Shown: piece after piece, positions 1,257 through 47,376 of the stretch
How the letters are laid out: each line of letters begins with the position of its first letter
Position numbering within the stretch: position 1 is the first letter of the stretch
Origin: Craterostigma plantagineum
Taxonomy: Eukaryota > Streptophyta > Magnoliopsida > Lamiales > Linderniaceae
Length of the DNA: 64,000 nucleotides
Assembly: GCA_027422505.1 (NCBI GenBank)
Contig: JAPQWV010000050.1
Location: 4,340,001-4,404,000, forward strand
Direction of reading: 5' to 3'
Program-made: the position numbers and the translations under genes
The notes under the pieces: generated by a model
The model's database searches: none
The model's input: only the letters and a program-made list of their open reading frames with translations
Told to the model about the DNA's origin: nothing

Positions 1257-4200
1257 ATGGCGGCGAAGTTTGATATCGAAAAGTTCAACGGAAGGAATTT
1301 CTCACTGTGGAAATTAAAGATAAAGGCGATCTTGCGAAAGGACGGCTGTCTGGAGGCTATCGATGGAAAACCAACCACCGTGACAGATGACAAGAAATGG
1401 AACGAGATGGACGGGAGCGCTGTCGCAAATCTCCATCTGGCACTAGCAGATGAGATATTGTCCAGCGTAGAAGAAAAGAAAACGGCAAAGGAGATTTGGG
1501 ACCACCTAACAAATTTGTACGAAACGAAGTCGCTACACAACAAAATTTTCTTGAAGAGAAAATTGTACACCTTGAGAATGTCAGAATCTACTTCAGTGAC
1601 GGAGCATCTCAACGTCTTGAATACTCTATTTTCCCAGCTAACATCGTTGGGGTACGTCTCAAGAGCGTGCAGAAATTCTACTTCAAAGTCTGCCTGATTC
1701 GTATGATCAACTCATCATCAACCTGACGAATAAGCCTGCAGATGTCTCAACTACAAAAGAAGAAAATAAATCCACCGATACTCTGGTCTTTGACAACATC
1801 GCATCTGCTGTTCTCGAAGAAGAAAATCGGCGAAAGAACAAGGAGGACCAGCAAGCAGGATCTCAACAGGTCGAAGCTTTGACGGTGATGAGAGGGAGAT
1901 CAACGGAACGTGGTTCAAGTGGGAGTCACACTCAAGGCAGGGGAAAATCAAGAAGTAAGAAGAAGGATATGAAATGCTACCACTGCGGAAAGAAGGGTCA
2001 CTTGAAGAAGGATTGTTGGAACCTGAAAAATTCCAATCCTCAAGGAAATTTGGCAAACGCGCCAGGTGGAGACGTACTGTGTAGCGAAGCAGCTATCTCA
2101 ACGGAGAGCAGGAAGGCGTACGATGAAATATGGCTTCTTGACTCGGGCGCAACTTATCATATGACCTCTCGAAGAGACTGGTTCAACCACTACGAACCTA
2201 TCGTAGGAGGATCTGTGTACAGTTGCGAAGATAATGCCTTAAAGATCGTAGGCGTTGGAACCGTGAGGTTGAAGTTGCACGACGGTACAATTCGCACTAT
2301 TCAAGGAGTGCGGCACGTGGAAGGTCTGAAGAAGAATTTATTGTCTGTGGGACAGCTAGACGATCTTGGCTGTGAAATCAAAGTTCGGGAAGGAATAATG
2401 AAAATATTCCGTGGAGCACTTGTAGTCATGAAAGGTGAAAAGGTCGCTGCAAATTTGTATATGCTATTGGGAGAGACGGTGCAAGAAGGGGAAGCGTCTG
2501 TGGCTTCGGGAAATTCAACCGAAAAATCTACTATGCTGTGGCATCAAAAGCTCGGGCATATGTCTGAACAAGGTATGAAAATTCTTGCGAGCCAGAATCT
2601 ACTTCCGGGTCTCACGAAGGTGTCACTACCGTTCTGTGAGCATTGCGTAGCAAACAAGCAGCATCGGCTACAATTTCAACACATCAAATTCCAGAAGCAA
2701 CGGTATTCTAGAATTGGTTCACTCTGATGTATGGCAATCACCGGTTTCATCCCGAGGAGGAGGGAAGTACTTCGTGTCTTTCATCGACGATTACTCCGGA
2801 GATGTTGGGTGTATATCATCAAGAGTAAGGGAGATGTGTTCGCTACCTTCAAGAATTTCAAGGCTCGGGTCGAACTTGATACAGGAAAGAAGATCAAGTG
2901 TTTGAGGACGGATAATGGAGGAGAATACACTGGTAGGGAATTTGATAGCTTTTGCAAAAGAGAAGGCATCAAAAGGCACTTCACTACGGCGTATACTCCA
3001 CAACAAAATGGAGTGGCGGAGCGGATGAACATGACTCTGTTGGAGAGAACAAGAGCCATGTTGGGAGCTGCAGGTCTGGATAAATCATACTGGGCAGAAG
3101 CAGTCAACACCGCCTGCTACGTGATCAATCGATCGCCTTCAACGGCAATCGATCAGAAGACGCCGATGGAGATGTGGACCGGAAAGCCAGCGGACTATTC
3201 CAAACTCCATGTATTTGGAAGTCCTGTGTACGTGATGTACAACGCCCAAGAAACTACGAAGTTGGATCCGAAGTCCAGGAAGTGTTTGTTCTTGGGGTAT
3301 GCTGATGGTGTGAAGGGGTATCGCCTGTGGGATCCCACTGCGCACAAGGTTGTCATCAGCAGGGAGGTTATCTTCTTAGAAGATAAAATAATCGGAGAAA
3401 ATAATAGCACTACAAAGGAAAGCCCAGAAACTACGACGATTCAGGCGAAAGGGAAGTCTGTGGAACAAGATTCTTCTGAAGCTGCACCGGAGCACGAAGA
3501 AGGGCCAGCCGAATCTTCAGAGCCAGAACCTAGAAGGGGCACACGCAAAAGAGCCGCACCATCCTGGCATGAAGATTACGACATGGACAGCAACGTTGCA
3601 TACTGTCTTTTAACTGATGACGGAGAGCCATCAACTCTTCAAGAAGCACTGAACAGTTCAGATGCAGATCAGTGGTTGGCGGCAATGCAAGAAGAAATGT
3701 AAGCTCTACGGAAAAATAAGACTTGGGAGTTGGTGCCACTACCTCAGGAAAGAAAGGCAATCGGCAATAAATGGGTCTTTAAGATCAAGCGGAACAGCGA
3801 CGATCAAGTAGAGCGGTTTCGTGCAAGACTGGTGGTTAAAGGCTACGCTCAGAAGGAGGGCATTGACTTCAATGAGATTTTCTCACCGGTGGTTCGACTG
3901 ACGACAGTTCGGATACTCCTGGCGATGTGTGCTACATTCGACCTACATCTAGAGCAACTAGATGTGAAGACATCTTTTCTTCATGGAGATCTTGAAGAAG
4001 AGATTTATATGCTCCAACCGGAAGGTTTTGAAGACAACGAAGAGCAGAACTTGGTTTGCAGGTTAAACAAATCTCTATACGGTCTCAAACAGGCGCCGAG
4101 GTGTTGGTATAAGAGATTTGATTCCTTTATCATGAGCCTTGGATACAACAGATTAAACGCAGACCCTTGTGCATATTTCAAGAGGTTTGGTGAAAATGAT

Positions 4201-5184
4201 TTTATCATATTACTGTTGTATGTTGACGACATGTTGGTAGCAGGCCCCAACAAAGATCGAGTAGAAGAACTCAAGGCACAGTTGGCTAGGGAATTTGAAA
4301 TGAAGGACTTGGGACCAGCAAACAAGATTCTAGGGATGCAAATTTACCGAGACAGAAATAACAAGAAGATTTGGCTTTCGCAGAAGAATTATCTGAGGAA
4401 GGTCTTGCGACGCTTCAATATGCAAGATTGTAAGCCAATTTCTACCCCACTTCTTGTTAATTTCAAATTATCCTCAAGTATGAGTCCTAGCAGTGAAGAA
4501 GGGAGGATTGAGATGTCTCGAGTACCGTATGCATCAGCGGTGGGAAGTCTTATGTTCGCGATGATTTGTACACGACCAGACATTGCACATGCAGTGGGAG
4601 TAGTGAGTCGGTACATGGCGAATCCGGGCAAAGAGCATTGGAGTGCGGTGAAGAGGATCCTACGATATATCAAAGGAACCTCAGATGTTGCATTATGTTA
4701 CGGAGGAGCAGACTTTACTGTCAGGGGGTACGTTGACTCTGATTATGCAGGTGATCTTGACAAGAGCAAATCTACCACGGGATATGTGTTTACTCTTACT
4801 GGTGGAACCGTAAGCTGGGTATCAAAACTTCAGTCCGTTGTCGCGACGTCAACTACTGAAGCTGAATATGTTGCAGCTACGCAGGCAAGTAAAGAGGCGA
4901 TATGGTTGAAAATGATCATGGAGGAACTCGGGCACGGACAGGAAAATATTCCTCTGTTCTGTGACAGTCAGAGTGCCTTGCATCTTGCAAGGAATCCAGC
5001 TTTTCATTCCAGGTCAAAACACATACGAGTCCAGTATCACTTCGTTCGTGAGAAAGTGGAAGAGGGCACGGTAGATATGTTGAAGATTTATACGAAACAC
5101 AACCTAGCAGATTTCTTGACGAAGGCGGTCAACACTGACAAGTTCGTTTGGTGTCGTTCCTCAAGTGGTCTGGCGGAGACGTAA
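1257..5184 (+). pseudogene. Copia gag-pol polyprotein, frameshifted
   Basis: Gag starts at 1257 and reads open for about 135 residues. The frame shifts near 1650-1665, where a few codons seem lost. The next open stretch (1879-2727) carries the zinc knuckle CYHCGKKGHLKKDC, the protease motif DSGATYH and the GAG-pre-integrase WHQKLGHM motif. In integrase the frame changes near 2680 and returns near 2797. After that it is open through RTDNGGEY and TPQQNGVAER until a TAA at 3700-3702. RT and RNase H continue in the same frame, with the catalytic YVDD box near 4219 and DSDYAGD in RNase H, and end at 5184. At least three frame changes and one stop are needed to read the whole protein, so it should be inactive unless some are assembly errors. 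Confidence 0.93.
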
Positions 5185-22570: not shown

Positions 22571-23312
22571 TCATTGGACGGCTTTCTGAGGTTTTTCTGG
22601 GAGAATGTTATCGGGAAGGACGAGCTCGGGGGGAGTTTCGCGGACAACTCCGATCATGGAGTCGTACTCTTCATCTCTGCGCGCAAACTTCTTTCTCAGC
22701 ATCTTCTCATATTCGATCTCCTCGAAAGACTTCTCGTTCTCAGCTGAGTGCACCTTCGCAAGGTTTACGTAGTTGGTCGCAGATTGGGCGATGAACGCAA
22801 TCTCTTCTTCGCTGAGCTTCCTTAGGAACTTGGCTGGATTACCGGCCCATATCTGTTATCATGTAAGAAGTTAAGAATACATCGTTTTATGTGCGAAAGC
22901 GAGACACATAGTATATATAAATAGAAGAGGGTACATCGTTTTCGTACTCTTATTGACCTTCATTCAAAATTCCCCCAGTATGTTTCAAAAAATTGAAGTG
23001 ATTTATGGGCACAATGCAGACATAATATTTTTACTGCAACTTCAAAATGTGATTTGCACGAAATAATTTGAGGATAAACACTACGTCACCAGAATTGCTT
23101 ATTTGGGGAAAAATCCTACGCGACAGTTCCATGACACCCAACTTCAAGGGTTGCAATTTAACGGCACTACCTTTCATAATTGAAGCAATTTAAGAACAAC
23201 AAATTAGAATTCTGAAGCATTGTATCCCTAAATTGCTTCAATTTTGAACGTTAGTGTCCTTAAACTGAAACCCTATAAGTTGGGATGTCATGAAAGTGTC
23301 ATTTCCCCTAGT

Positions 23313-23379
<67 letters not shown>

Positions 23380-25316
23380 CGCCAGAAGGGACCCTTGTGT
23401 TCTGCCTGACAAGAGATCCCGCGGCAACCATGGCGTGTTTCTCGACAACCACTCCGTCGAGAAGAGTGGCTCCCATTCCAACAAAGGCCTCGTCCTCAAC
23501 CGTGCACCCATGTACAACCGCACTATGGCCTACAAGTGCGTTCAGCATTTTTTACGTTTCAATTTGGAGGTGATTGTCAATATATAGATCGATGTTAAGA
23601 GAAAAAAAGGATCGAAGCACTCACCGATGGTGACGTTATTCCCGATAATAGTAGGCAGCACTTTCCCGCTAAGGTTAGATTTAGCCACGTGCACCAAAGA
23701 GTTGTCCTGTATGTTGGTCCCCGACCCAATGCTGATGCTGTTCACATCGCCTGCGTGTACATAGTTGTAAAAGGGGAATTTACTGTTTGAAACGAGTGTA
23801 ATCTAAAGAAACGAGATTTTTCGAACCAAGTACTTACCACGAAGGACAGACCCGTACCATATTGATGACCCACGGCCAACTTGGACATCGCCGATAACGG
23901 AGGCGCTAGGAGCAATAAAGGCGTCTTTGTCAACCACGGGAGATTTGTCGAAGAGGTTCATCAAAGTACGGTGCCTAGAGACTTAAAAAAAAAATTAAAT
24001 ATTAGTGAGATGAAGGAGATTTAGTGTAGTATAGGTCGAGTCATGCTAGGCCAAAGAATCATGGCTAGCAGGCAATTACTTATGCAATGTAGTCATAATT
24101 AAAGAATCATACTATGAACTGCAACATCCATGAATGAATGCTGTGTGGCTACCAAAGGCCAAGGCACAATGCAGAAATCATTAAGGGCACGTTTATACAC
24201 TGCCACCCGTCAAGAACTTGTATGATTCTTGAGTCTCTTTTATGCGTATTTTAGTTTTTACAACTGAACCTTACATGAAGACCCATACCACGAGAAAAGG
24301 AATCACGATGTCTTTCGGATTATTGTTCTAAACATATCTAGCATAGGTTGACATGACGATAATCTTTCGATTCTGAAGCGTGTGCCTCATAGGGGTAGCT
24401 TAGGACATTGATATTACATATAAGCTTCAGACGTTGAGATTCCTCAGACTGGGAAACAATGGTTGGTTAAACGATGAAGGTTAGAATTTCCGTCTAATCA
24501 ACAGTCAATGATATATCTATAAACATTCTACATTACGATGAATTTCTGGCTACACATCTCACCTTTCATCTACTCTAGTCCAGAGAATTCAGTGCCACTC
24601 AAAGGCATATCATAGGCATAACAACGACCAGAAAAGAAATGCCTTTCACTGCATTGTCTCAAAAGTTCAAAACGATTTCGCCACTCCTTCGAGTTATGAT
24701 ATTATTACGACTTAAGTACCTCCACAAAAATGATTACCTCAGAACTAACATAACAGGCAACTTTCCGGACAAATTATTTCATGGCCTCTCAATCAAGAAC
24801 ACAAGCCAAGATCAATCATCAAGAGCCAATAATACCCATAGAAGCTGAATTGTCTTGCACTAAAATCCAACTCTAAGTCTCTATCTTCAAACTGAAAATC
24901 AAAGCTGCTACCTACATAGATTATCCCATAGGACTATTCAAATGAATGCACAATTCAGCTCGGCCAAACTCGTTTGCACCTTCAACAAGCCAAAAGAATA
25001 AAATGCAAGAATCGACACGAAAACCCCTAAATGCAGCACATATGAAAACTCAATTAGGTCCGCGGTCAAATTACATTTCGCACGCACAAATTCAACAAAA
25101 AGCGGAAATTAACGAGTAATCGGAAGCGATTCAGCAAATGCGAGTAATGGTATCATCCCAGAAACGATCAATCGAGAAAAATCAAAGCAAACAACACTCA
25201 CGCTGCTCCTGGAAATAGTAATTCCCTTGGAGGCGACAACCGAGTCGATCCATGGCTTGTCCCGTCTCTCTAATCCAATTTCCCAAGGTATACACAGCTC
25301 TTCCTAGACTTCCCAT
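22571..25316 (-). CDS. Mitochondrial gamma carbonic anhydrase (complex I subunit)
   Basis: Five exons on the minus strand: 25316-25202, 23981-23838, 23750-23625, 23529-23378 and 22852-22571. Phases fit and give 272 residues. Plant gammaCAs form the matrix-side carbonic anhydrase domain of mitochondrial complex I and are needed for its assembly. The left-handed beta-helix region (about 55-200) is present, and all three zinc-ligand histidines of the active type are kept: H107 in LVHVAK, H130 in TIGHSA and H135 in VVHGCT. The C-terminal ETPPELVLPDN motif is typical. It is closer to gammaCA1/2 than to the gammaCA-like proteins. Intron 1 (1,220 bp) contains a 70-bp segment (24845-24914) that also occurs as coding exon in MTF. 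Intron 4 begins with an unusual GTCTCTCT donor inside a CT microsatellite and holds a MITE. Exon 1 and its promoter were copied, inverted, to 31298-31412. Confidence 0.95.
23105..23308. mobile_element. Short foldback MITE in gammaCA intron 4
   Basis: A 204-bp element. The left arm starts GGGGAAA and runs through CATGACACCCAACTT and AATTGAAGCAATTTA; the right arm has the complementary blocks in mirror order (TAAATTGCTTCAATT, AAGTTGGGATGTCATG, TTTCCCC). Target duplication was not resolved. Degenerate relatives with TTTAAGGACAC motifs lie in the AAA-ATPase intron near 16800-17090. Confidence 0.75.
23315..23376. repeat. (GA)31 microsatellite at a 5' splice site
   Basis: A 62-bp GA run on the plus strand, which reads (CT)n on the gene strand. 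It sits directly against the exon 4 end of the gammaCA gene, so the intron starts GTCTCTCT. Confidence 0.95.
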
Positions 25317-25902
25317 TTGATCGGAGTATCACTACCACAAAACCCAACAACTTCGATGGCGTGTGATCTGAAGAACACCGAAAATTCTTGACAAACCGAA
25401 GTTCTGCGTGGCTTCGTTCTTCCCAGGGGTATACGTGGGATTTCGCCACCCCTTACTCTTTTGACATTTAATAGAGAAAATGTATTAAGCCTATTAATTA
25501 ATTAAAGAAAACCCTCCCTTCCCCACTCGAAATTTCTTCAACCATCTTGTGTGCCGTTAATGCAAATTTAGGTTCGAATTCTCTCGCACTTTCAGGTAAA
25601 GTCAGCATCTTTCGTTGTCTATTTGATAATCATCAGATGTTTTTATTTGTTCACGGTGAGAAATTTTGAGTTTAATTCAGTGCTTCATCCTAGTTGTATC
25701 GGTCTTGAGTAATTTGGATTGCAGTTTAGTTTAGTTTAATCTTTTCTGGGCTGAATCAAAGTTCAGGTTTGCACCGTTATCATGATTATGTAAATTGCAG
25801 GCTAGAATGTTCTCTATATTTTCTCTTCACTGCACTGAAATTTTATTCCCTAATTTTGATCTACTGTAAAGAAAAAAAAAAGGTTTCGATTTAGGCGAAG
25901 AA
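25317..25902. promoter_or_regulatory. Shared divergent promoter of gammaCA and RER1
   Basis: The two start codons point away from each other, 586 bp apart, so the genes probably share a bidirectional promoter. On the RER1 side the leader appears to hold an intron (donor ACTTTCAG|GTAAAG near 25596). Most of this region was copied in inverted orientation upstream of MTF (28821-31297). Confidence 0.7.
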
Positions 25903-26758
25903 ATGGAGGAAGAAGAAGGCGTGAGCAATAGCACCGTGCCAATATCACCATTATCAAAGTGGAGAAACGACTATGCTCGTAAATTCCAGTATTACTTGGA
26001 TCGATCAGCTCCACATATGGGCCGAAGATGGCTTGGAACTATTTTAGCAGCGGCGATATACATTTTGCGTGTTTATTACGTAAAGGGTTACTATGTAATT
26101 TCCTATGGGCTCGGTATATATCTCTTGAACATTCTGACGGGATTTTTGTCCCCAAAAGTCGACCCCGAGTTGGAAGTTTTCGACGGTGCTTCTTCGCCGA
26201 CTGGAAGAGACAGAGAGGAATTTAGGCCTTTTGTTCGTCGCCTGCCTGAATTTAGGTTCTGGTGAGATAATTATCACTATTTCAAGTGACCATTTATGAA
26301 TTTGAATCGAAGGATGTGTAATATTGTGACCAACTTGGAATCTTGGCTCTTGGGTCAGAATCTTGATAAGCAATCTTATTATATTACTTCTGTTTTTCGG
26401 TAATCGTTTTTGCAGGTATGCAGCTACGAAAGCCTTCTGCGTTGCGTTTCTGATGACGTTCATATCTATCTTCGATGTCCCAGTTTTCTGGCCCATACTT
26501 TTCTCTTACGGTACTTTCTTGTTTTTCCTAACGATGAAGAGGCAAATCACTCATATGATCAAACACAGATATCTCCCATTCACCTATGGCAAGCAGGTCA
26601 ATCTCTAATCTGAAAAAACGTATTTTTTAGCATTACAGTGTTTTTTTGGTTTCGATCGGTCTATGTATGTGAAAGTTTTCCTTCCCTTTGCTTTTGAACA
26701 GAGATATGCTGGAAACAGATCTGCTGGGAGTAGCAGGTCTAGTTCATTCAGGGACTGA
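25903..26758 (+). CDS. RER1: RER1, Golgi-to-ER retrieval receptor
   Basis: Three exons, 25903-26261, 26416-26596 and 26702-26758, with consistent phases, give 198 residues, the usual RER1 size. RER1 proteins sit in the cis-Golgi and return ER membrane proteins through COPI vesicles. The conserved [17 protein letters not shown] block, paired hydrophobic segments (about 43-60 and 60-80, then 125-145 and 145-160), LPEFRFWYAATKAF across the first splice site and [14 protein letters not shown] across the second are all typical. The C-terminal tail is Ser/Arg-rich. Part of exon 2, exon 3 and the downstream region were duplicated to 54746-58068. Confidence 0.96.
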
Positions 26759-28777: not shown

Positions 28778-29047
28778 ATTGTATGTATCTGAAGCTTGAC
28801 AAGGCAATTGTGTAAAAACGAAATCTAGCCTGCAATTCACACAATCATGGTAGCGGTGTCAAACAAAATCCTGAATTGCTATTCACCGCCCCCTTTTTCC
28901 TAGTCACCGCCCCCTAAAGGGCTGAAAAAAGACGATTTTGCCCTTATGATATTTAAATTAATTTAAAAAGAGAAAAGGGCCTATTTTCACGACTGATAAG
29001 CCAAATTAACGTAAAACTTTGTTCGAATTTCAACTCGACCGAAAAAA

Positions 29048-29308
29048 AAAAAAAAATTCGACCGAAATCAATTTTCGGTCAGTACTGTACTGACCGAAAA
29101 TTGATTTCGGTCAGTACTGTAACGACCGAAAATCGATTTCGGTCAGTACAGCACCGACCGAAATCAATTTTCGGTCGGTACAGCACTGACCGAAATCAAT
29201 TTTCGGTCGGTACTGTACTGACCGAAATCAATTTTCGGTCGTTACAGTACTGACCGAAATCAATTTTCGGTCAGTACTGTAACGACCGAAAATTGATTTC
29301 GGTCGATT
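29048..29308. repeat. Left palindromic array (8 units of 32 bp)
   Basis: Each unit is a 21-nt near-palindrome with arms GACCGAAA and TTTCGGTC around a 5-nt centre (TCAAT, ATTGA or TCGAT), plus an 11-nt spacer such as AGTACTGTAAC. Orientation of the centre alternates irregularly. Every unit can form a hairpin. Confidence 0.92.
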
Positions 29309-29309
29309 T

Positions 29310-29590
29310 TTTTTTATATATTATTTATTTTGATTATTTATTTATAATATTTATTTGGATTATTTATTTGTATATTTTATTTGGATTATTTATTTGTATT
29401 ATTTATTTGGATTATTTATTTGTATATTTTATTTGGATTATTTATTTTTATTATTTATTTGGATTATTTATTTGTATATTTTATTTGGGTTATTTATTTT
29501 TATTATTTATTTGGATTATTTATTTGTATTATTTATTTGGGTTATTTATTTATATTATTTATTTGGATTATTTATTTGCAAACAAATATT
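29310..29590. repeat. T-rich array (TTATTTGGATTATTTATT)
   Basis: Tandem variants of TTATTTGGATTATTTATTTG. All forward frames are open only because the repeat lacks stops, so this is not coding. A shorter reverse-complement copy lies at 29955-30066. Confidence 0.9.
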
Positions 29591-29649
29591 GAAAACATAT
29601 ATAAAATCCGTCCGATACAATAAAAGATAAAAAAACAATAGCAACAGCG

Positions 29650-29946
29650 TCAAGGGGCCTGGCGCCACCGGTCGTTGATGTCATTCAGCCTGTGTCGGAA
29701 CTCGTCCGTACGCGTCGTTTCACCACGATGCAGACTGGCTAGCATGTCCGAACTCAAGCTGTACATCGTGTTGTACCACTGCACATAGCAATAATACGTA
29801 CGATTACACATATAAATATAAAAAAATCGACATAAGATTTAATTACGTACGTAGTCGGCGTGGCTGCGCGGGGGTATGCATGCCGATGAGGATCCCTGCT
29901 CCGTCGAAAGCAGGCGAGGATGAGAATGTATCTCATACCAGTCCAT
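29650..29946 (-). pseudogene. Captured spliced coding fragment in the MULE core
   Basis: On the minus strand an open segment (29946-29851: MDWYEIHSHPRLL ... RSHADY) ends at a GTACGT donor. After a 72-bp AT-rich stretch ending GTGCAG, a second open segment (29778-29650) reads WYNTMYSLSSDMLASLHRG ... RHRLNDINDRW and stops. The phases join without interruption. The composition is much less AT-rich than the surrounding arrays. I do not recognise the source gene with certainty; a plant-mobile-domain-type protein is a guess. It looks like a host gene piece carried by the element. Confidence 0.5.
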
Positions 29947-29954
29947 GTACAAGA

Positions 29955-30066
29955 AAAATAAATAATCCAAATAAATAATACAAATAAATAATCCAAATAA
30001 ATATACAAATAAATAATCAAAATAATAATCCAAATAAATAATATAAATAAATAATCAAAATAAGTA
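29955..30066. repeat. A-rich array, mirror of the T-rich array
   Basis: Variants of AATAATCCAAATAAATAAT, the reverse complement of the array at 29310-29590 but shorter. It completes the mirror symmetry of the MULE. Confidence 0.88.
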
Positions 30067-30086
30067 ATAATAAGAAAAAAAAAAAA

Positions 30087-30530
30087 TTCGACCGAAATCA
30101 ATTTTCGGTCGTTACAGTACTGACCGAAAATTGATTTCGGTCAGTACTGTAATGACCGAAAATCGATTTCGGTCAATATAGTACTGACCGAAAATTGATT
30201 TCGGCCGGTACAGTAGTGACCGAAATCAATTTTCGGTCAGTACTGTAACGACCGAAATCGATTTTCGGTCATTACAGTAGTGACCGAAATCAATTTTCGG
30301 TCAGTACTGTAACGACCGAAAATTGATTTCGGTCGGTACAGTACCGACCGAAAACTGATTTCGGTCACTACTGTACCGACCGAAATCAATTTTCGGTCAG
30401 TACTGTACTGACCGAAATCGATTTTCGGTCGTTACAGTACCGACCGAAAATTGATTTCGGTCACTACTGTACAGACCGAAAATTGATTTCGGTCACTACT
30501 GTACCGACCGAAAATTGATTTCGGTCGAAT
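30087..30530. repeat. Right palindromic array (14 units of 32 bp)
   Basis: Same 32-bp unit as the left array, with 14 copies against 8. Spacers vary (AGTACTGTAAC, ACTACTGTACC, GGTACAGTACC), and a few units have point changes in the arms (for example GGCC in unit 4). Confidence 0.92.
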
Positions 30531-31297
30531 TTTTTTTTTCTTTCGGTCGAGTTGAAATTCGAACAATGTTTTACGTTAATTTGGCTTAAGTCGTGAAAAT
30601 AGGCCCTTTCCCTTTCCTAGTCCCTGTCGGCGATCCATTGCGATTTCAGTATTTTTTTTGTTTTTCTCTGATTTTCGATATGTGATTTGAAAAGTGTTGT
30701 CTGGAGAGAGCTTTAAATAGATATTTTTATTGTTTATTATAATTTTCTCTTTTTAAATTAATTTAAAAATCATAAGGGCAAAATCGTCTTTTTCCAGCCC
30801 TTTAGGGGGCGGTAACAAGTAAAAAGGGGGCGGTAAATAGTAATTCCCAACAAAATCTGAACTTTTATCAGTCCATAAAACATTACACTAAATTAAACTG
30901 CAATCCAAATTACTAAGGACCGTAGGATGACGAACTGAATTAAACTAAAATTTATCACCACGAACAGATAAAAACATATGATGATTATCAAATAGACAAC
31001 GAAAGATGCTGACTTTACCTGAAAGTGCGACAAAATTCGAACCTAAATTTGCATTAAGGGCACACAAGATGGTTGAAGAAACGAGTGGGAAGGGAGGGAC
31101 AGATGGTTTTATTTAATTAACAGGCTTAATATATTTTCTCTATTAAATGTCAAAAAAGTAAAGGTTGGCGAAATCCCACGTATACCCTTGGGAAGAACGA
31201 AGCCACACAGAACTTCGGTTTGTCAAGAATTTTCGGTGTTCTTCAGATCACACGCCGTCGAAGTTGTTGGGTTTTGTGGTAGTGATATTCCGATCAA

Positions 31298-34200
31298 ATG
31301 GGAAGTCTAGGGAGAGCTGCGTATACCTTGGGAAATTGGATTAGAGAGACTGGACAGGCCATGGATCGACGAGGTTGTCGCCTCCAAGGGAACTACTATT
31401 TCCAGGAGCAGCGTGAGTGTCGTTTGCTTTGATTTTTCTCGATTGATCGTTTCTGGGATGATACAGTTACTCGCATTTGCTCAATCGCTTCCGATTACTT
31501 GTTAATTTCCGATTTTTTGTTGACTTTGTGTGTGCGAAATGTAATTTGACGGCGGACCCAATTGAGTTTTTATATGTGCTGCATTAGGGGTTTCTTCTTT
31601 CGTGTCGATTTTTGTATTTTGTTCTATGTAGGTAGTAGCTACGATTTTCAATTTGAAGATAGAGACTTAGAGTTGGATTTTAGTGCAAGACAGTTCAGGA
31701 AAAAACGCCTCGTCTTCATGGGTTCCCCGCAGGTAATTTTCACTGATTTGGTTAAAGAGAAAATTCCTCTTTGATGATCATCCCAGATAGTCATCGACAT
31801 TTAACTCAAATTCAATACTGCATTTTCAGGTATCGACCTCTGTTCTCGACAATCTTCTCACTGCTTCTTCAGCACCGAACTCTATATTCGAGGTACTAGC
31901 TCTGCTTTGCTTTATTTTCCGTATAGTTGCTTGTATCCCTTTCATCGTATCCCTCTATTGGATAGTATTCTTTTCCCCTGGGGCAACTAAACACGGATGC
32001 GTTGTGATTCAAAAGGTGCTTAGTGTTAATCATTATTTGCAAAGCTTATAATGTACATAAGATAGCGTATTCTTTTGTCCTTTGGATTTCGGTCTGTTAG
32101 AAATTAGTGAAAATACGAGCCATGTGTTGGTAATCCTGTCAAGAAAAAATTCAATGGTCCAATATTTTTTAGATTTTATTTTTAAAGCGACGCATAGCAG
32201 TATAAAATTAGTTTTTTTGTGAAAATGAAATGTTTTAGAGTTTATACCGTGATATGTATGTTGGCATGTTTCAGATTGTGGGTATTGTGACTCAACCTCC
32301 TTCAGGAAGAGATAGGGGTCGGAAAGTAATGCCTTCTGCAGTTGCACAATATGCTTTGGACAAAGGTTTTCCACCTGATCTGATTTTCACGCCATTGAAA
32401 GCAAGTGAGGTATATTTCAGTAGTTGATGTCTTAACCAATGAATGGTTCAAGTTTCATCTTGTAATGTGCAACTTATCGTGTGGTTAACTATTACAGTGA
32501 TGTCTTTCTGCTTCTCGTTCTGCATGTTGGCTGTTTATGGCTATTGAATGAGATTCACGTCTTATGTATTGCGACGTGCCGTTTGCACGGAGCTATATTT
32601 TGAACTTCATTAGAATTACTGTGCAGGAAATATTTCTTTCGAGCTTTAAAGCTTTGGACCCTGAGGTCTGCGTCACAGCTGCGTATGGAAATATCCTACC
32701 TACGAAATTCCTCAAGATTCCTTCGATGGGTCAGTATGAATATTTGTCCTTAGTACCATGGTATGCAGTGTCCAATGAGCATCGATTCTTGAAATTTTTG
32801 CCAAGATATTACAATGGTTATCCAAGCAAATAATTGGCATGTAATAATATAGAAACGCTTATGTAGGGACGGTTAACATACATCCCAGCTTGCTTCCTTT
32901 GTATCGAGGCGCAGCACCTGTTCAAAGAGCCTTGCAGGTTAATAATTATTGTTTCTCTGATTCTTGTTTGCGTTCTTTGTCTTTCTCAGTTTCTTTTAAA
33001 CTTTACGTGAGAAATAAATGAAATTCATCAGGAAGGTGTGAAAGAAATAGGAGTTTCACTGGCATATACTGTGCGCCAACTAGATGCTGGTCCTATAATT
33101 GCTCAAGAAAAAATGGATATAGACGACAATATAAAGGTACCTCTTTTTCATTTTTCTTGTGCTTGCCTTAGCTTAAGTGAACTCCAAGACGGGAAATACA
33201 AATTGTGATTCGGTAACTTAACAATTAGTGAAAAGGGTTGAGGACCCGTAGTATGATCAATCATTGATGTAGATTCTGTCCATGATTTTTAATGGTAGTT
33301 GCCTTTTGTTTAGTTTCCTATATTTATTTATTATCATCCGTTTTAGCAAATTTCTGATCGAGCTTTAGTGGTCTTTGCACAGGCTACTGATTTGCTCAAC
33401 CTGCTATTTGCTCGAGGTCTGTTTTTCCCATACCTCATTGATATAATACTTTGCATATACAAACTTCAGATCAAATTGTTATATTTTTCAAGCTTCCGTT
33501 CCTTCGATTTAGGACGCTAACATTGAACATAACGGAATCTTACATTGCGTTGTTTCTAATGTAGGATCCAAACTTCTGATCCATCACCTTCCCTCAATAT
33601 TGGACGGATCAGCGAAGGCTAAAGCACTTCCTCAAGATGAATCCATGGCTACTTTGGCGCCAAAAGTAAGACATTTCGCTCCTTTGTAACTCTTATTTTG
33701 GTTGAAGATAGTCTCAACAATCATGTAGCCATCGTTTCTTTCATTATTTGCAGATAAACCCCGATGAATCTTGGCTATCCTTCGATGACAACGCTACAGT
33801 ACTTCACAATAAGGTTTATCTTTTCTTTTTTCGTTTGGAAGAAATAATTAGTGTTAGTCATCATTTTGTTTAATATTTTCATTCTGATTCTGAGATATGT
33901 ATGTTCATAAACCTCTCAGGTTCGTGCATTCGCAGGTTGGCCAGGAACACGTGCAAAAGTCTTAGTCGGTGATCATAACAATGTCATAGAGCTCAAAATC
34001 ATCGCCACTCGCGTGCACAGTAATAACGAAACCCCGATCTGCGAAATGGGTGATGTTTTATTTTCAAAAGGCTCTTTGATATTCGCTTGTGGTGAGGGAA
34101 CGGCGCTTGAGGTAGTTATTAATAATTTTTTAATTTATATTCATTCTTGTCTTACACAAATACTTATTGGTTGGTAAGGATATTATTTTGATACATGGGA

Positions 34201-34318
34201 TCGTTCATCATATCTGAATTAGGTGTTAGAGGTTCAGCTTCCTGGTAAAAGAGTTGTTAACGCAGCTGCATTTTGGAACGGTCTGAGAGGCCAAAAACTG
34301 AAAACGTGCAAAGCATAA
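31298..34318 (+). CDS. Methionyl-tRNA formyltransferase with a captured gammaCA first exon
   Basis: Twelve exons: 31298-31412, 31632-31732, 31830-31892, 32275-32409, 32627-32729, 32867-32937, 33032-33136, 33383-33416, 33565-33665, 33754-33813, 33920-34111 and 34223-34318. The phases fit and give 391 residues. The enzyme formylates initiator Met-tRNA for organelle translation, using 10-formyl-THF. Core motifs: RLVFMGSPQ, TAAYGNILP, NIHPSLLPLYRGAAPVQRAL with catalytic N176 and H178, LDAGP with D214, and AFAGWPGTRAKV in the C-terminal domain. Exon 1 (MGSLGRAAYTLGNW ... FQEQ) is a copy of gammaCA exon 1 with its GTGAGT donor. It joins in phase to exon 2, whose first 67 bases match gammaCA intron 1 reversed. 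No native MTF leader is visible upstream. The splice of exon 1 to 2 is inferred from phase and sites only; exons 3-12 are firm. Confidence 0.9.
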
Positions 34319-35918: not shown

Positions 35919-35923
35919 GTGAT

Positions 35924-36445
35924 TGTTGACTTTTCAATAATGGAGAAGAAAACCATAGGAGATCAAATTGAATTTGATCACCTATGAGCTAAGCACTTAC
36001 GTGCTTTGTGCCCTAAACACCTATAAATAGGCTTAGGTGCTCAATGTAATAGACACCCCAAATCCAAGAGAGAAAGAGAGCGAGGGAGAGAGAATGAGAG
36101 GGAAAAAGAAAGAAAAAAATGGAAATCTTGTCCGTGCGGATAAGGGTGAGAGCGGGTTTAGTTTTACTGGAGTAGTTGGGAGTAGGTACAAAAACATTAC
36201 CCGGGTGGGTAAGGGGTCTCGGGTTTTGGGTTTAAACACGAGCGTTATTTTGTACGATGTAATATTCTCAAATATAGTAAAACTATGTCTCTCCGTGGAT
36301 GTAGGCGGTATTGGCCGAACCACGTAAAAATCTCGGTGTTCTCTTGGTGTCATTACGACTTTAATTAATATCCCGATAAATTGTCGCGGGGTCCAAATAC
36401 AACTACCGCTGGCCCGGAATTAAATATTACCGCTAAACCCCAACA
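35924..36445 (+). repeat. 5' LTR of the deleted copia-like element
   Basis: TG...CA ends, with a TATA-like box CTATAAATAG at 36021-36030. Confidence 0.92.
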
Positions 36446-37981
36446 AGTGGTATCAGAGCCAAACCCTACTGGTATTCTAAGTATGCTCTGTGGTTGCAGC
36501 TGTGTCTGATCTTCCACATCAGAAAAGATATCAGAAGGGAATATCGATCGGGGGGAGCCAGTGTCAGAGCGAGGTTCAACGAAGTGATGCCTTGTGCTGA
36601 AGAAATGATGGTACAAGATGGACGTTGATGGGATGCTCTGTGTGGGCGGAGCTTGTGCGGCGGTGGAGTTTTGGCGAGTTATGGCAATAGTGCTGTGAGG
36701 CAGGTCATTCTTTTTGTGGAAAATATCTGATCAGTACTATTTGGGCCGGGCTGTTGACAAGGATAATAACGACGGATGACAACAAAGTGCGACAATGTGC
36801 TAGTGCGGGAGGTTTCACTCTGTGGCAGAAAAGAGTGAAGGATGTGCTCGTTTGTCAAAGCTGGGTGATAAGCTTTGATGGGAGACGAGGATAAGTCGGA
36901 GTAAATGACGAAAGATTTGGGGTCAAGATGTGTCGGAGAGGAAGAAGTAAGGCCCTGTTACTTCTTACCTCGTTTCCTGATTCGGGTGATAATTTGATCA
37001 CAACCATCGTACGATACGATGCAGACGGTGGATGGTGGAGTCAACTCTTTTGGAGCATGAAAAGAGAAGGCGGTCAAATTTTGGTGATAGCTGGGTGTTG
37101 GCTATTTTTCAGAGTGAATCATAGAGGAAGGTGATATGCCAAAGGGATTTGGGACAACAGCAGGTCCAAATCCAGGTGGCAGGAAGGGCATGTGATGCTA
37201 CAAATGTGGTGAGTCGGGACACATCAGAAGAACGGTCCGACTTGGAGGAAGAAGGACAAGCGGCTAGCAAAAAATTCCACATGAGGGTACCACACGGGTT
37301 ATCTTGGAGACGTTCTCACGGTCTCTAATGATGGCGCTCGTTCTCAAGAACAAAGATATTAAATTCGGGTTTGCTCCGAGAGAATATTTTGATGCGTTTA
37401 GGGAAATGCAAACGGTTTTTCGATCTCCATGGGCTGATGGATATCGTTGTGTTGTTCGGTGTGTTGGAACGGGGAAGATCAAAATGGTTAGTGGAGCGGT
37501 GCGCATTTTGGGTGGTGCGACGTTGTCCCAAAGTTGCGTAGTTTTTAATATTCTTGAGCCAGTCAGATTTCAGGGCTATGGGGTTTCATAGCAGGGGGAG
37601 TCTGGGAAAATCACACATGGCGGAAATGGTCCTACCAAAGGGAGAAGAGTGCAAAGGTTTGTATCGTCTGGGTTCACGAAAATTGCTCGAGCGTGGTATA
37701 AAGGCAGACGATGGTGAGAAGGAAAATCCTGCTGGAGAAGGGGTTGCATCGAAGTCCCTCTTCGGGAATCGACGGATCGAGTCGGTTCAACATAGCTGCA
37801 CATAATATTGGCCGCTGAATGAATCAAGTGGGGTAGGATCAGAATTCTTGATTCGGATTATGTGTAGGTGCTACAAGGAAGGCCAATGGACGTTCGGGGT
37901 ATTTACGAACGAGTTACTCTCATTCTCGGGTTCGCTGGAGTGCTCTCTAAAGAAGGCGCAGATGTTGAAAAGGGGGGAGAT

Positions 37982-38497
37982 TGTTGACTTTTCAATAATG
38001 GAGAAGAAAACCATAGGAGATCAAATTGAATTTGATCACCTATGAGCTAAGCACTTATGTGCTTTGTGCCCTAAACACCTATAAATAGGCTTAGGTGCTC
38101 AATGTAATAGACACCCCAAATCCAAGAGAGAAAGAGAGCTAGGGAGAGAGAATGAGAGGGAAAAAGAAAAGAAAAAAATGGAAATCTTGTCCGTGCGGAT
38201 AAGGGTGAGAGCGGGTTTAGTTTTACTGGGGTAGTTGAGAGTAGGTAACAAAACATTACCCGGGTGGGTAAGGGGTCTAGGGTTTTGGGTTTAAACACGA
38301 GCGTTATTTTGTACGATGTAATATTCTCAAATATAGTAAAACTATTGTCTCTCCGTGGATGTAGGCGGTATTGGTCGAACCACGTAAAAATGTTCTCTTG
38401 GTGTCATTACGACTTTAATTAATCCCGATAAATTGTCGCGGGGTCCAAATACAACTATCGCTGGCCCGGAATTAAATATTACCGCTAAACCCCAACA
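37982..38497 (+). repeat. 3' LTR of the deleted copia-like element
   Basis: Second copy, followed by GTGAT. It lacks a few bases present in the 5' LTR (for example CTCGGT near 36330). Confidence 0.92.
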
Positions 38498-42609: not shown

Positions 42610-45600
42610 CTAAAGAAATAATTCGGGATAACGATTCTTCATATCATCTTCTCGCTCCCACGTGGCTTCTTCAACTGCTTGGCTTCGCCACAGTACTTTG
42701 ACTAACGGAATATTTTTATTCCGAAGTCGCTTCACTTCGCGCACTAAGATTTCAACTGGCTCCTCTTCGTAGCTCAGGTCCGGCTTGAGTTGCTGGTGAA
42801 GTGATTCGCTTCCTAGTACATGATTCGGGTTCGTAACGTATTTACGTAAGGTTGATACGTGAAATACGTCGTGGACTTGGGCTAACGAGGCTGGTAACTC
42901 CAGTTGATATGCAACTTCCCCGACTCTCTTAAGGATTTGGAAAGGACCAATGTACCTCGGACTGAGCTTGCCCTTCTTTCCGAATCTTTTCACGCCTCTC
43001 ATAGGAGATATCTTCAAGAACACCCGATCGCCTTCCAAGAACTCTAGTGGCCTTCGTCGTTGATCAGCATAGCTCTTCTGACGACTTTGGGCTGTCTGCA
43101 TTCTTTCTCGGATTTTGGTGACCGCCTCCGTCATTTCTCGTATCATATCGGGACCTAAGAGTGCTCGCTCACCGATCTCGTCCCAGTGGATCGGGGATCG
43201 GCATTTGCGCCCGTATAAAGCTTCGTACGGTGCCATCCCGATTGAAGAATGATAACTGTTGTTATACGAGAATTCGATCAGAGGAAGAAATTTGCTCCAG
43301 CTCCCTTTGAAGTCTAAGACACAAGCTCGGAGCATATCTTCGAGGGTCTGAATAGTTCGTTCTGATTGCCCGTCAGTTTGGGGATGATAAGCAGTGCTGA
43401 ACGAAAGCTTCGTCCCCATTGATTTCTGTAAGCTCATCCAGAACTTGGACAGAAATTTTGAATCTCGATCCGAGACGATGGACGAAGGAATCCCGTGAAG
43501 TCGAACTATTTCTTGAATATACAATTTAGCATGTTGCTCCAAAGAGAAAGTTGAACAAATAGGTAGAAAATGGGCGGACTTAGTTAATCGATCTACAATT
43601 ACCCAAATGGCGTCGTGGCCTTTCGCAGTTTTCGGCAAGCCGACGACAAAGTCCATGGTAATATGATCCCATTTCCACTCGGGAATAGACAAGGATTGCA
43701 GCATCCCAGCCGGCCTCTGATGTTCTGCCTTGACTTGTTGGCAAGTGAGACACTGGCTCACGAACGTCGCAATGTCTCCCTTCATTCCCGGCCACCAGTA
43801 CGTCTCACGTAAATCTCGATACATCTTCGTAGCTCCGGGGTGTACCGAGTATGTAGTGGCGTGCGCCTCCGTCATTATGGTTTTCCGGAGTTCTGCATTA
43901 TCGGGCACGTACAGACGATTGTTATAGAATAAATTCCCGTCTCCTTGTAATTTGAATTCTGATGAAGTCGTGATTGTTTTCTCGCTTGTCAATTTCAGAT
44001 ACAGCTCGTCTTGCTCCTGAGCTTTCTTGATCTGCTCCGGCAACGTAGGGTGAAGAGTTAACGCCGCCATTCTAGCCTCGATCTCGCCAAAATTTATTAC
44101 TTCTACTTCGAGGTTGTGGAGTTCCGTGTTCACCGCCTTTCGACTCAATGCGTCGGCGACTACGTTTGCTTTGCCGGGGTGATAGTTGATCACGCAATCG
44201 TAGTCTTTAACGAGCTCCAACCAACGTCGTTGCCTCATATTCAACTCCTTCTGGGTAAAGAAGTATTTCAGGCTCTTATGGTCGGTGTAGATCTCGCACC
44301 GTCCCCGTAGAGATAATGACGCCAGATTTTTAGGGCGAACACAACTGCTGCGAGTTCGAGATCGTGCGTGGGGTAATTCTTCTCATAAGGTTTCAACTGT
44401 CGGGAGGCATACGCAATTACCTTCCCATTCTGCATCAGCACGCACCCCAAGCCAATCTTTGAGGCATCACTGTACACCGAGAAGCTTTCGGTACCGGAGG
44501 GAATCGTAAGAACTGGAGCCGTTGTCAATCGTTTTTTCAACTCCTGGAAGCTTTGCTCGCATGCTTCCGTCCACTTGAATGGGACATTCTTCTTCGTCAG
44601 GTTCGTGAGTGTCGAGGCAATGCTGGAAAAGTCCTTGATGAACTTTCGGTAGTATCCAGCAAGCCCGAGAAAACTCCTGACCTCCGTGGGAGTGGTTGGT
44701 CGTGGCCAATCGCTTACGGCTTCGATCTTGCTGGGGTCCACAGAAATCCCTTTTCCGGAGACAATGTGTCCCAGAAAGGCCACTTGCGTGAGCCAAAATT
44801 CACATTTCTTGAATTTGGCATAGAGTTGTTTTTCCCGAAGAATTCCGAGAACCGTTCGTAAATGAGCGTCATGTTCCTCCTTCGTTTTAGAATAAACGAG
44901 GATATCATCTATAAAGATGATTACGAAGTGGTCGAGGAAATCTTTGAAGACCCGGTGCATTAGGTCCATAAATACTGCTGGAGCGTTCGTCAACCCGAAA
45001 GGCATAACCAAAAATTCATAGTGGCCATACCTCGTATTGAACGCCGTTTTTGGAACGTCGGCTTCCCGAACCTTCAGCTGATGGTACCCCGATCTTAAAT
45101 CAATTTTGGAAAATATAGACGCTCCTTGTAGCTGATCGAACAGATCGTCAATTCTGAGCAGCGGGTATTTGTTTTTGATCGTCAGTTTATTCAGCTCTCG
45201 GTAGTCGATACAAAGTCTCATCGACCCGTCCTTCTTACGAACGAACAGGACCGGTGCTCCCCAAGGCGAGAAACTGGGCTGAATAAATCCTTTCTGCAAT
45301 AGCTCATCAAGTTGCTCTTTTAACTCTCGTAGTTCGCTTGGTGCTAAACGGTACGGAGTCTTAGAGAACGGTGCTGCTCCTGGAGTTAGTTCGATCGCGA
45401 ATTGGAGTTCTCGATTAGGAGGTAGTCCCGGGAGATCGTCAGGAAATACGTCGGGAAATTCATTTGCAACGGGTACGTCTTTTAATTTCGGTTGAGGCGA
45501 TTCGTCGGTCTTTATTGCAAATAGGAGAAAAGACTCACATCCCGAATTCAGAAGTCGTTGGGCTTTTAAGGCAGAAATTTGATGGATTTTGCTCCTCTCC

Positions 45601-47210
45601 TTCGCTCCCACAAACGTGAACATTTCATCTTCAGGAATTTGGAACGCCACCATCTTCTTCCGGCAATCGATTATGGCCCCGTATTTCGAGAGCCAATCCA
45701 TTCCGAAGATAACGTCGTAGTCGTTCATCGGGATCACAATTAGATCTACACTCAAACTCCTTCCTTCGATCGTCACGGGACATTTCTCCAACACTAGATT
45801 AGTTCGAGATGGATCCCCGTGTGGTAGGGTTACTACATAGTTTTAATCAGATAAGGTAGGAGAGATGCCTACCTTGGTCACATATTTGGCCGACACAAAC
45901 GAGTGCGTGGCTCCAGAATCAAACAACACGGAAGTAGGCACGTCGTAAATTTGTAACGTACCGGTCACCACTGTAGGATTTGCCTCTGCCTCTTCATTGG
46001 TAAATGTGAACACCCGTGCTGGAATCGGTGGTGGTCGTGCCTCCACCTCTTCATTAGACAATGCAAACACTCGAGCTGGAGCTGGTGGTGGTAGCGCCTC
46101 CGCCCTTTCATTGGTCATTGCAAATGCTCGAGTCGGAACCGGTGGCGGTCGTGCAAGCGTCTGAGTCGGGTTCCTGGGTTGATCGCAGGCTCGTGCGTAA
46201 TGTCCCTGTTTCCCGCAGAGATAGCAGACGACGTTGGGGTTGTATCCAACTCCAAAGCAGACACCGACGTGGTTACGCCCACATTGTTGACACGGTGGTG
46301 AGTTGTATGAAGATCGGTTCGGAACGCTGGGTGGTCCCTGGTTCGGCCTCGGTCGCCAGTTAGATGGTCCCGAGCGACCTCCTTGATTAGGGCCTTTCCC
46401 GAAGAATGGTCTCTTTCGGTCACCTCCACCTCCCTGCTGACTCTCCGTTCTCTTCCTTGCTTCTTGCGCCGCCACGATCTGAGCCTCTGCTTGCTCCGCG
46501 ATGATGGCTCGTTCGGCCACTTGTGTGAAGTGCACACCAGGGATACCCGACATGCTTACGTCACGGTAAATCTCGGGTCTGAGGCCCACCATGAAACGAG
46601 CCACCTTTAATGCATCAGTAGCTACCATGTGTGGAGCGAAGCGAGATAGCTCTTCGAATTTACGGACGTATTCCGGCACCGTCATCCTTCCTTGTCGGAG
46701 GTTGATGAATTCGTTCATTCGTTGTGCTTGCTCGTGGGCTGAGAAGTATTTTTCGAAGAACAGTTCTTTGAATCTATCCCATGGCATCGTAGCGGGATCG
46801 TTAAGGATTTTGATGGTATCCCACCAAAATCGCGCACTTCCTCGTAACATCGAAACGGCACAGAGAACTTGTTCGTTCCCTGGCACCCGACCGTATACGA
46901 ACATATCTTCAATTGTTCGGATCCAGTCTTCTGCCATCGAAGGATCGGTAGCTTGCTCGAAAGTCGGGGGATTCAGTTTACGAAACCTTTCCCCGATAAT
47001 TTCCACACGGTCAGGATGTGGAGAGGATCGGTGCTCAGATGAGCTCCGGAAATTGATTAGATCGTGGATTTGAGCAGCCTGTTGCTGGATCAGCTCAGTC
47101 AAACAGCGGATGGTATCGTTCTCGCGTGTGTTGTTCTCACGAGTCGGGGATTCAGAGCCATCCCGACGACTGGGCTCTCCATCATTCCCATTTCCCGATC
47201 GTGTCCTCAT
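42610..47210 (-). pseudogene. Gypsy gag-pol polyprotein, one stop and one frameshift
   Basis: Gag starts at 47210 (MRTRSGNG), with the retrotransposon gag block and the zinc knuckle CYLCGKQGHYARAC. The protease motif LFDSGATHSFV follows, then an in-frame TAA at 45843-45845. The same frame reopens through [14 protein letters not shown], the RT core with the catalytic FIDDILVYS box, and the start of RNase H. Near 44270-44300 one base is out of step. The next frame (44244-42610) holds the end of RNase H, the tether [14 protein letters not shown], the integrase zinc finger ([11 protein letters not shown]), the DDE core ([14 protein letters not shown]) and a C-terminal chromodomain ([16 protein letters not shown]). 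Only two small lesions separate it from an open polyprotein. Confidence 0.93.
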
Positions 47211-47376
47211 TTTCTAAGAGTCTACAAGTTCACATAACATAGAAAAGCACACACAGAAAAAAAAACACATAAGCATTTACATGTATTCACGTAATAGTAT
47301 AAAACTTACAGACGTAGGCTGATCCTCCCGGCTTTTGAGCGGCAGTACATGGACGGTCTACAGAACCTAAAGCCTA

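Follow-up and report, generated by a model that had tools for sequence, protein, structure and literature searches.

Passages of PMC8317393 report that some transferred mitochondrial genes have taken over the presequence of another gene; for rps10 and exon shuffling, Wischmann and Schuster 1995 is cited there. The presequence of cytochrome c1 is attributed to exon shuffling by Long et al. 1996, as cited in PMC6198282. For plastid EF-G (chl-fus), passages of PMC4522979 describe a transit peptide recruited via a phase-1 intron, with 5′ regulatory sequence proposed to have been co-recruited. The passages of PMC10375062 on retargeted aminoacyl-tRNA synthetases in the Sileneae report no transit peptide donated by another protein, and organelle leader swaps in which the donor can be identified seem to be rare.

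The locus described here lies in the window, the whole stretch of 64,000 nucleotides of Craterostigma plantagineum DNA that was analysed, and concerns a methionyl-tRNA formyltransferase (MTF) gene preceded by DNA of the gene for gamma carbonic anhydrase (γCA). The most probable reading, to which we give a probability of roughly 0.7, is the capture of leader and promoter from γCA, making the window MTF mitochondrial.

Duplicated γCA tract

The 5′ part of the γCA gene is present a second time in inverted orientation ahead of MTF, and the region comprises the following features.

22571–25316, minus strand: γCA gene, five exons, intact open reading frame of 272 residues
25202–25316, minus strand: exon 1 of γCA, the leader donor, 38 codons and one base
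24845–25770, minus strand: donor tract, by alignment; γCA 5′ flank and exon 1 with the beginning of intron 1
25903–26262, plus strand: first exon of a Rer1-family gene (PF03248, E 2.6e-35), divergent from γCA
28824–28864, plus strand: distal fragment of the duplicated tract, 41 bp, matching 25806–25767 (BLASTN E 2e-7)
28873–30846, no strand given: element, about 2 kb, bounded by terminal inverted repeats of 86 bp (28873–28958 and 30846–30761), within the duplicated tract
30853–31698, plus strand: inverted duplicate of the γCA tract, by local alignment and repeat search
30853–31297, plus strand: copied γCA 5′ flank, by alignment; putative promoter and 5′ UTR for the fusion

In the local alignment, 30853–31698 matches 25770–24845 on the opposite strand with approximately 90% identity, the copies lying about 5 kb apart. 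BLASTN splits the match into pieces of 89.96% identity over 787 aligned positions and 93.4% over 76, and a repeat search of the window returned the inverted pair 25097–25522 and 31092–31517, 93% complementary. The donor tract runs from the intergenic 5′ flank between γCA and its Rer1 neighbour through γCA exon 1 and into intron 1; because the Rer1-family gene is divergent from γCA, the tract may hold a bidirectional promoter region. The alignment and the inverted-repeat match are far above chance, which rules out chance similarity. With about 10% divergence between the copies, their inverted orientation, and the element splitting one of them, an assembly duplicate is unlikely.

The first-pass annotation had described 31298–31412 as an inverted copy of γCA exon 1 (25316–25202) with seven substitutions, and had placed the end of homology to the γCA locus at 31698, just before the MTF core; the alignment agrees on both points. 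The exon 1 copies are 115 bases long, with the seven substitutions falling in six codons, no indel and no stop, and they have in common the ATG and the GTGAGT donor. Two of the codon changes alter the amino acid (V8A and L25R) and four are silent. The distal flank has 25 substitutions in 303 positions and seven gap openings, the proximal flank 6 in 137 and none, exon 1 has 7 in 115 and none, the intron 13 in 212 and five, and the exon-2 part 5 in 67 and none. The divergence of exon 1 (6.1%, against 4.4–8.3% in flanks and intron) gives no clear sign of constraint on this exon, which weighs against the capture reading; it is not clearly slower than its surroundings, so that its conservation alone is no proof, and the lack of indels in the exons between the copies could be due to chance.

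The element at 28873–30846 separates 28824–28864 from the rest of the duplicate, and we place the duplication of the γCA tract first and the insertion of the element later. Capture of the γCA fragment inside a transposon is disfavoured, because the element's inverted repeats do not enclose the fragment. Internally, the element carries tandem arrays of 32 bp (GACCGAAATCAATTTTCGGTC...) and 13 bp (ATTATTTATTTGG), and a possible target duplication of 8–9 bp surrounds ACAAAATC.

Other repeats occur elsewhere in the window. Open frames of a retrotransposon, separated by stops, lie at 1642–5184 and match Pol_BBD, gag_pre-integrs, SH3_retrovirus, a weak rve and RVT_2; from these domains we take it to be of Copia type. 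On the minus strand, 42610–47213 holds retrotransposon frames with a Ty3-type capsid/gag, protease, reverse transcriptase, parts of an integrase and a weak chromodomain match. An AG/CT dinucleotide run of 63 bases (23314–23376) directly follows the donor of γCA exon 4.

Gene model of the fused MTF

Joining 31412 to 31632 gives an open frame of 12 exons with GT–AG introns, from a start at 31298 to a stop at 34318, encoding 391 residues.

31298–31412, plus strand: exon 1, γCA-derived leader, ending in phase 1
31413–31631, plus strand: intron 1, 219 nt, from γCA intron 1
31632–31732, plus strand: exon 2; 31632–31698 is former γCA intron and 31699–31732 native MTF (KKRLVFMGSPQ)
31830–34318, plus strand: exons 3–12 of the model, stop codon at 34316–34318, TIGR00460 above cutoff
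31574–31732, plus strand: alternative start at an ATG within intron 1, with an open frame through exon 2 to the core

Residues 1–38 are thus encoded by γCA exon 1, the next 22 by former γCA intron, and the MTF part begins at KKRLVFMGSPQ. The first codon of exon 2 is shared with exon 1, and one arginine codon spans the breakpoint at 31698, which lies inside the first native MTF exon, one base ahead of the first lysine codon of the KKRLVF core. Intron phase and reading frame therefore permit a joined γCA–MTF product of the kind that presequence capture requires. Going upstream from 31298, the first ATG is met at 31147. Two direct copies approximately 2.06 kb apart, 96–100% identical in five pieces, lie downstream of MTF at 35921–38497.

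Sixteen AG sites were tested, with exon starts between 31467 and 31733; five are in frame and four of those are open (31632, 31659, 31665 and 31671), while the only other AG, between 31413 and 31440, falls inside the donor. The earlier proposal that TATGTAG (31625–31631) is the sole phase-compatible acceptor thus does not hold. All four open acceptors lie in the same new exon and join the γCA leader to the MTF core, and the gene model bears out that the exon starting at 31632 runs without stops into RLVFMGSPQ. The 20 bases before 31632 are 70% T, the highest value among the 11 introns of the model (next 60%), and the exon lengths are such that skipping of exon 2 would lead to a frameshift.

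A shorter transcript might instead start at the intronic ATG 31574, leaving the captured exon unused in the protein and giving the leader MCCIRGFFFRVDFCILFYVGSS. No stop separates this ATG from the core, and the phase fits. However, the 41 residues before the core would carry a net charge of −3 and form no amphipathic helix (muH 0.233), the γCA copy of the frame meets a stop after four codons, and a promoter would be needed within the intron; we consider this start very improbable.

The counterpart of exon 2 in γCA intron 1, 24845–24911, has kept the acceptor, TATGTAG, and can be read without a stop in the phase set by exon 1. GT sites at 24860 and 24800 are open and in the phase needed by γCA exon 2, with poor donor contexts. 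A cryptic exon in γCA itself at this position is possible, though nothing indicates it. As a candidate for an annotated alternative γCA exon the exon-2 peptide was rejected: 85 of the 86 listed matches to residues 1–64 of the fusion cover no more than 67%, and the wider one, from Nymphaea thermarum (P0143), has an unrelated insertion.

MTF leaders in related species

Searched against the protein collection, the fusion had 4540 matches, and the best 120 of these cover at most 86% of it, all without the new leader. From the same 120, 27 proteins were chosen for comparison and 26 were used, Ipomoea being dropped because the core pattern was not found. The leader before the core differs from that of the fusion in 26 of 26, and none is γCA-like, in that no γCA leader words occur. 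Native leaders contain 26–56% Ser and Thr, have an acidic residue in 1 of 26, and show RR followed by F, Y or I in all except that of Buddleja (25/26). The fusion leader has 8% Ser/Thr and three acidic residues.

The search with residues 1–64 listed 86 proteins, all with PF00132 (hexapeptide domain) and none with the exon-2 peptide. None of the 277 proteins compared shares two or more of the 4-residue words of that peptide, and none joins a γCA leader to an MTF core; the only two that share words with both do so through a coincidental five-residue word, IRETG, within the core. Since the relatives have a different leader and no fusion protein occurs among those compared, the window MTF represents the derived state.

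When leaders of six relatives were used as tblastn queries against the window, nothing convincing was found (best E 0.058). The first-pass annotation held that the native MTF leader had been replaced, and had called for a comparison of MTF N-termini across related species. That comparison gave a different leader in every one of the 26, and together with a breakpoint just before the core, the lack of a native leader in the window and an intact core that looks constrained it gives the replacement good support. The leader DNA is traceable to a recognisable donor gene, γCA, as in presequence capture. In the MTF tree, the window protein groups with Salvia, Perilla and Phlomoides (support 99/98); the γCA tree leaves the placement unresolved.

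Condition of the MTF core

The core is conserved. It scores 211.3 bits against TIGR00460 (methionyl-tRNA formyltransferase; cutoff 201.5) over residues 64–383, and the six best solved Fmt sequences match the fusion from residue 62–64 to residue 374–386. The VNIHPSLLP stretch, to which we ascribe a catalytic role, is present. Of the 130 columns that do not vary among the other 26 proteins, the window MTF has private changes in three, none with a negative BLOSUM62 score; by the same measure, Phlomoides has 8/135 changes, four of them radical.

Free drift of the core was simulated at half the noncoding divergence of the duplicate, assuming that one indel in five preserves the frame and that rates are equal on both branches. 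The core stayed intact in 0.00025 of the runs, and in 0.033 with a three-fold lower indel rate. With substitutions only it stayed intact in 0.37, or 0.53 at the lowest regional rate, so that the argument against decay leans on indels. To judge from these comparisons the core looks constrained.

The locus might alternatively lack a usable leader, as a young pseudogene or as the source of a cytosolic protein starting at Met68 (MGSPQ). No fusion protein appears among the best 120 of 4540 matches, nor among those to residues 1–64, which is in keeping with such a locus. Against it, neutral decay is improbable if indels are counted, and a start at Met68 would remove residues 63–67, where the matches to solved formyltransferases and TIGR00460 begin and which we take to be the first strand of the formyltransferase fold. 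We regard this alternative as improbable.

Branch lengths in the MTF tree are 0.28 for the window, 0.052 for Salvia, 0.16 for Phlomoides and 0.29 for Andrographis. In relative-rate tests the window MTF is significantly faster than those of Salvia, Penstemon and Paulownia (for example, 32 versus 16 changes, p 0.029), with no significant difference from those of Perilla, Phlomoides and Andrographis. The window γCA has an ordinary branch (0.051) in its own tree, and the faster pace therefore seems to belong to the MTF gene rather than to the whole lineage. Relaxed or altered selection on the window MTF is possible.

Such a pace also bears on whether another MTF with a native leader is encoded elsewhere in the genome, with the fused copy redundant, slowly decaying or specialised for mitochondria. 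The long core branch beside that of Salvia and the ordinary γCA branch favour a spare copy of this kind, as does the expectation that plastids need MTF too (passages of PMC13308715). Among the matches listed, Paulownia and Rehmannia each have two MTF proteins on different contigs, which could be haplotype copies. The intact frame, the retained invariant sites and the equally long branch of Andrographis speak against it. We hold a spare copy as a tentative alternative, with less than even odds, and one partly compatible with capture of the γCA leader.

Properties and destination of the leader

The leader retains the first half of its donor's amphipathic stretch and has lost part of the second, with muH values of 0.563 in the fusion versus 0.582 in γCA at residues 3–20, and of 0.537 versus 0.620 at residues 11–28; its net charge has risen from +1 to +2. 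Compared with shuffled leaders, the best moment has p 0.056 in the fusion, 0.015 in γCA and 0.37–0.60 in three native MTF leaders. AlphaFold2, run on exon 1 alone with no alignment, gave a weak prediction of a helix at residues 3–36 (pLDDT 83 and 89 in the first two ten-residue blocks, mean pLDDT 75, pTM 0.37). The make-up of the fusion leader looks mitochondrial rather than plastid-like. The proposal of the first-pass annotation, that a γCA presequence would now target the window MTF, is a reasonable one, though it took no account of the expected plastid role of plant MTF or of the reports that the γCA presequence stays uncleaved and binds the membrane.

Positions 8 and 25 were compared among γCA proteins with the SSIWYG stretch, 127 of 140 having the leader in register and the others being left out. 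All 127 have L, V or I at position 25, and all 127 have one of I, V, F and L at position 8; the two replacements in the fusion leader, V8A and L25R, both fall at these invariably hydrophobic sites, another point against clear constraint on exon 1. L25R maps to the hydrophobic face of the helix, at 57 degrees to the moment. The two changes would fit a release from the structural role in γCA with the import signal kept, and would equally fit plain drift.

In mung-bean complex I, according to passages of PMC7447434, the presequences of CA1 and CA2 are uncleaved and form a short amphipathic coiled-coil-like structure at the matrix surface of the inner membrane. Plant complex I γCA chains in the PDB (7a23 and 6x89) match the fusion only at residues 1–42, and the hexapeptide-repeat CA domain of a γCA or complex I subunit is absent from it. 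The fused MTF might be confined to mitochondria with the γCA helix uncleaved, placed on the matrix face of the inner membrane and perhaps beside complex I, plastids using another MTF or unformylated initiation. We think this unlikely, and the complex I part is the less favoured because L25R puts an arginine on that hydrophobic face, where 127/127 have L, V or I.

In plants, MTF is expected to act in both plastids and mitochondria (passages of PMC13308715), and Chlamydomonas MTF1 is given as the chloroplast enzyme in passages of PMC10760936; among the titles listed by our literature searches, 10 of 221 in the widest of them, none concerns the localisation of angiosperm MTF. The fusion leader is without the Ser/Thr-rich make-up of native leaders, which counts against the capture model in that the plastid supply is unaccounted for. 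With a leader that is only mitochondrial and an enzyme expected in both organelles, a second MTF or another plastid solution would be needed.

Proposed course of the capture

On the capture reading, the γCA 5′ flank, exon 1 and the start of intron 1 would have been copied, inverted and joined to MTF, which lies nearby, within its first exon, displacing the native transit peptide and the sequence upstream. MTF would then be transcribed from the copied γCA promoter, and exon 1 spliced to an acceptor within the former γCA intron. The predicted precursor would consist of the 38-residue γCA presequence, 22 intron-derived residues and the enzyme, and the leader would import MTF into mitochondria for formylation of initiator Met-tRNA. 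From the genomic DNA we infer transcription, splicing and import of the fused MTF, and a mitochondrial rather than a plastid destination.

The donor, the breakpoint, the 5′ flank copy and the partly intron-derived exon are all still readable. If confirmed, the fusion would let one test in nature whether a single MTF shared by both organelles is a necessity for plants. MTF is taken to be a soluble enzyme, and a confirmed fusion would also show the effect of placing an uncleaved membrane-binding presequence on such an enzyme. Among the titles listed by our literature searches, which were not aimed at the exact γCA–MTF fusion and of which some gave part of their matches (10 of 221 and 10 of 362, for example), none describes it.

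Comparison with known systems

As in the transferred mitochondrial genes treated in passages of PMC8317393, the leader of one mitochondrial protein gene serves another protein; unlike in those cases, where the receiver is an organelle gene on its way in, the gene that lost its leader here is a nuclear one whose product was already at work in organelles. The likeness to cytochrome c1, judged by the title of Long et al. 1996, is that an exon brings a targeting function to a new gene. In contrast to that case, the donor tract, the breakpoint and the 5′ flank copy are here recognisable at approximately 90% identity, and the joined exon is partly former intron. With chl-fus the locus has in common a phase-1 intron behind the leader exon and 5′ regulatory sequence that was possibly co-transferred, whereas the plastid case was inferred from intron phase across plants, with no donor gene named in passages of PMC4522979. 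The aminoacyl-tRNA synthetases of the Sileneae, as treated in passages of PMC10375062, are likewise plant organelle translation enzymes that switch address, but here the leader donor is identified. The γCA–MTF fusion thus joins the known presequence captures, and is unusual among them for the replacement of an existing leader, for a promoter that probably moved along with the exon, and for a stretch of intron that became coding.
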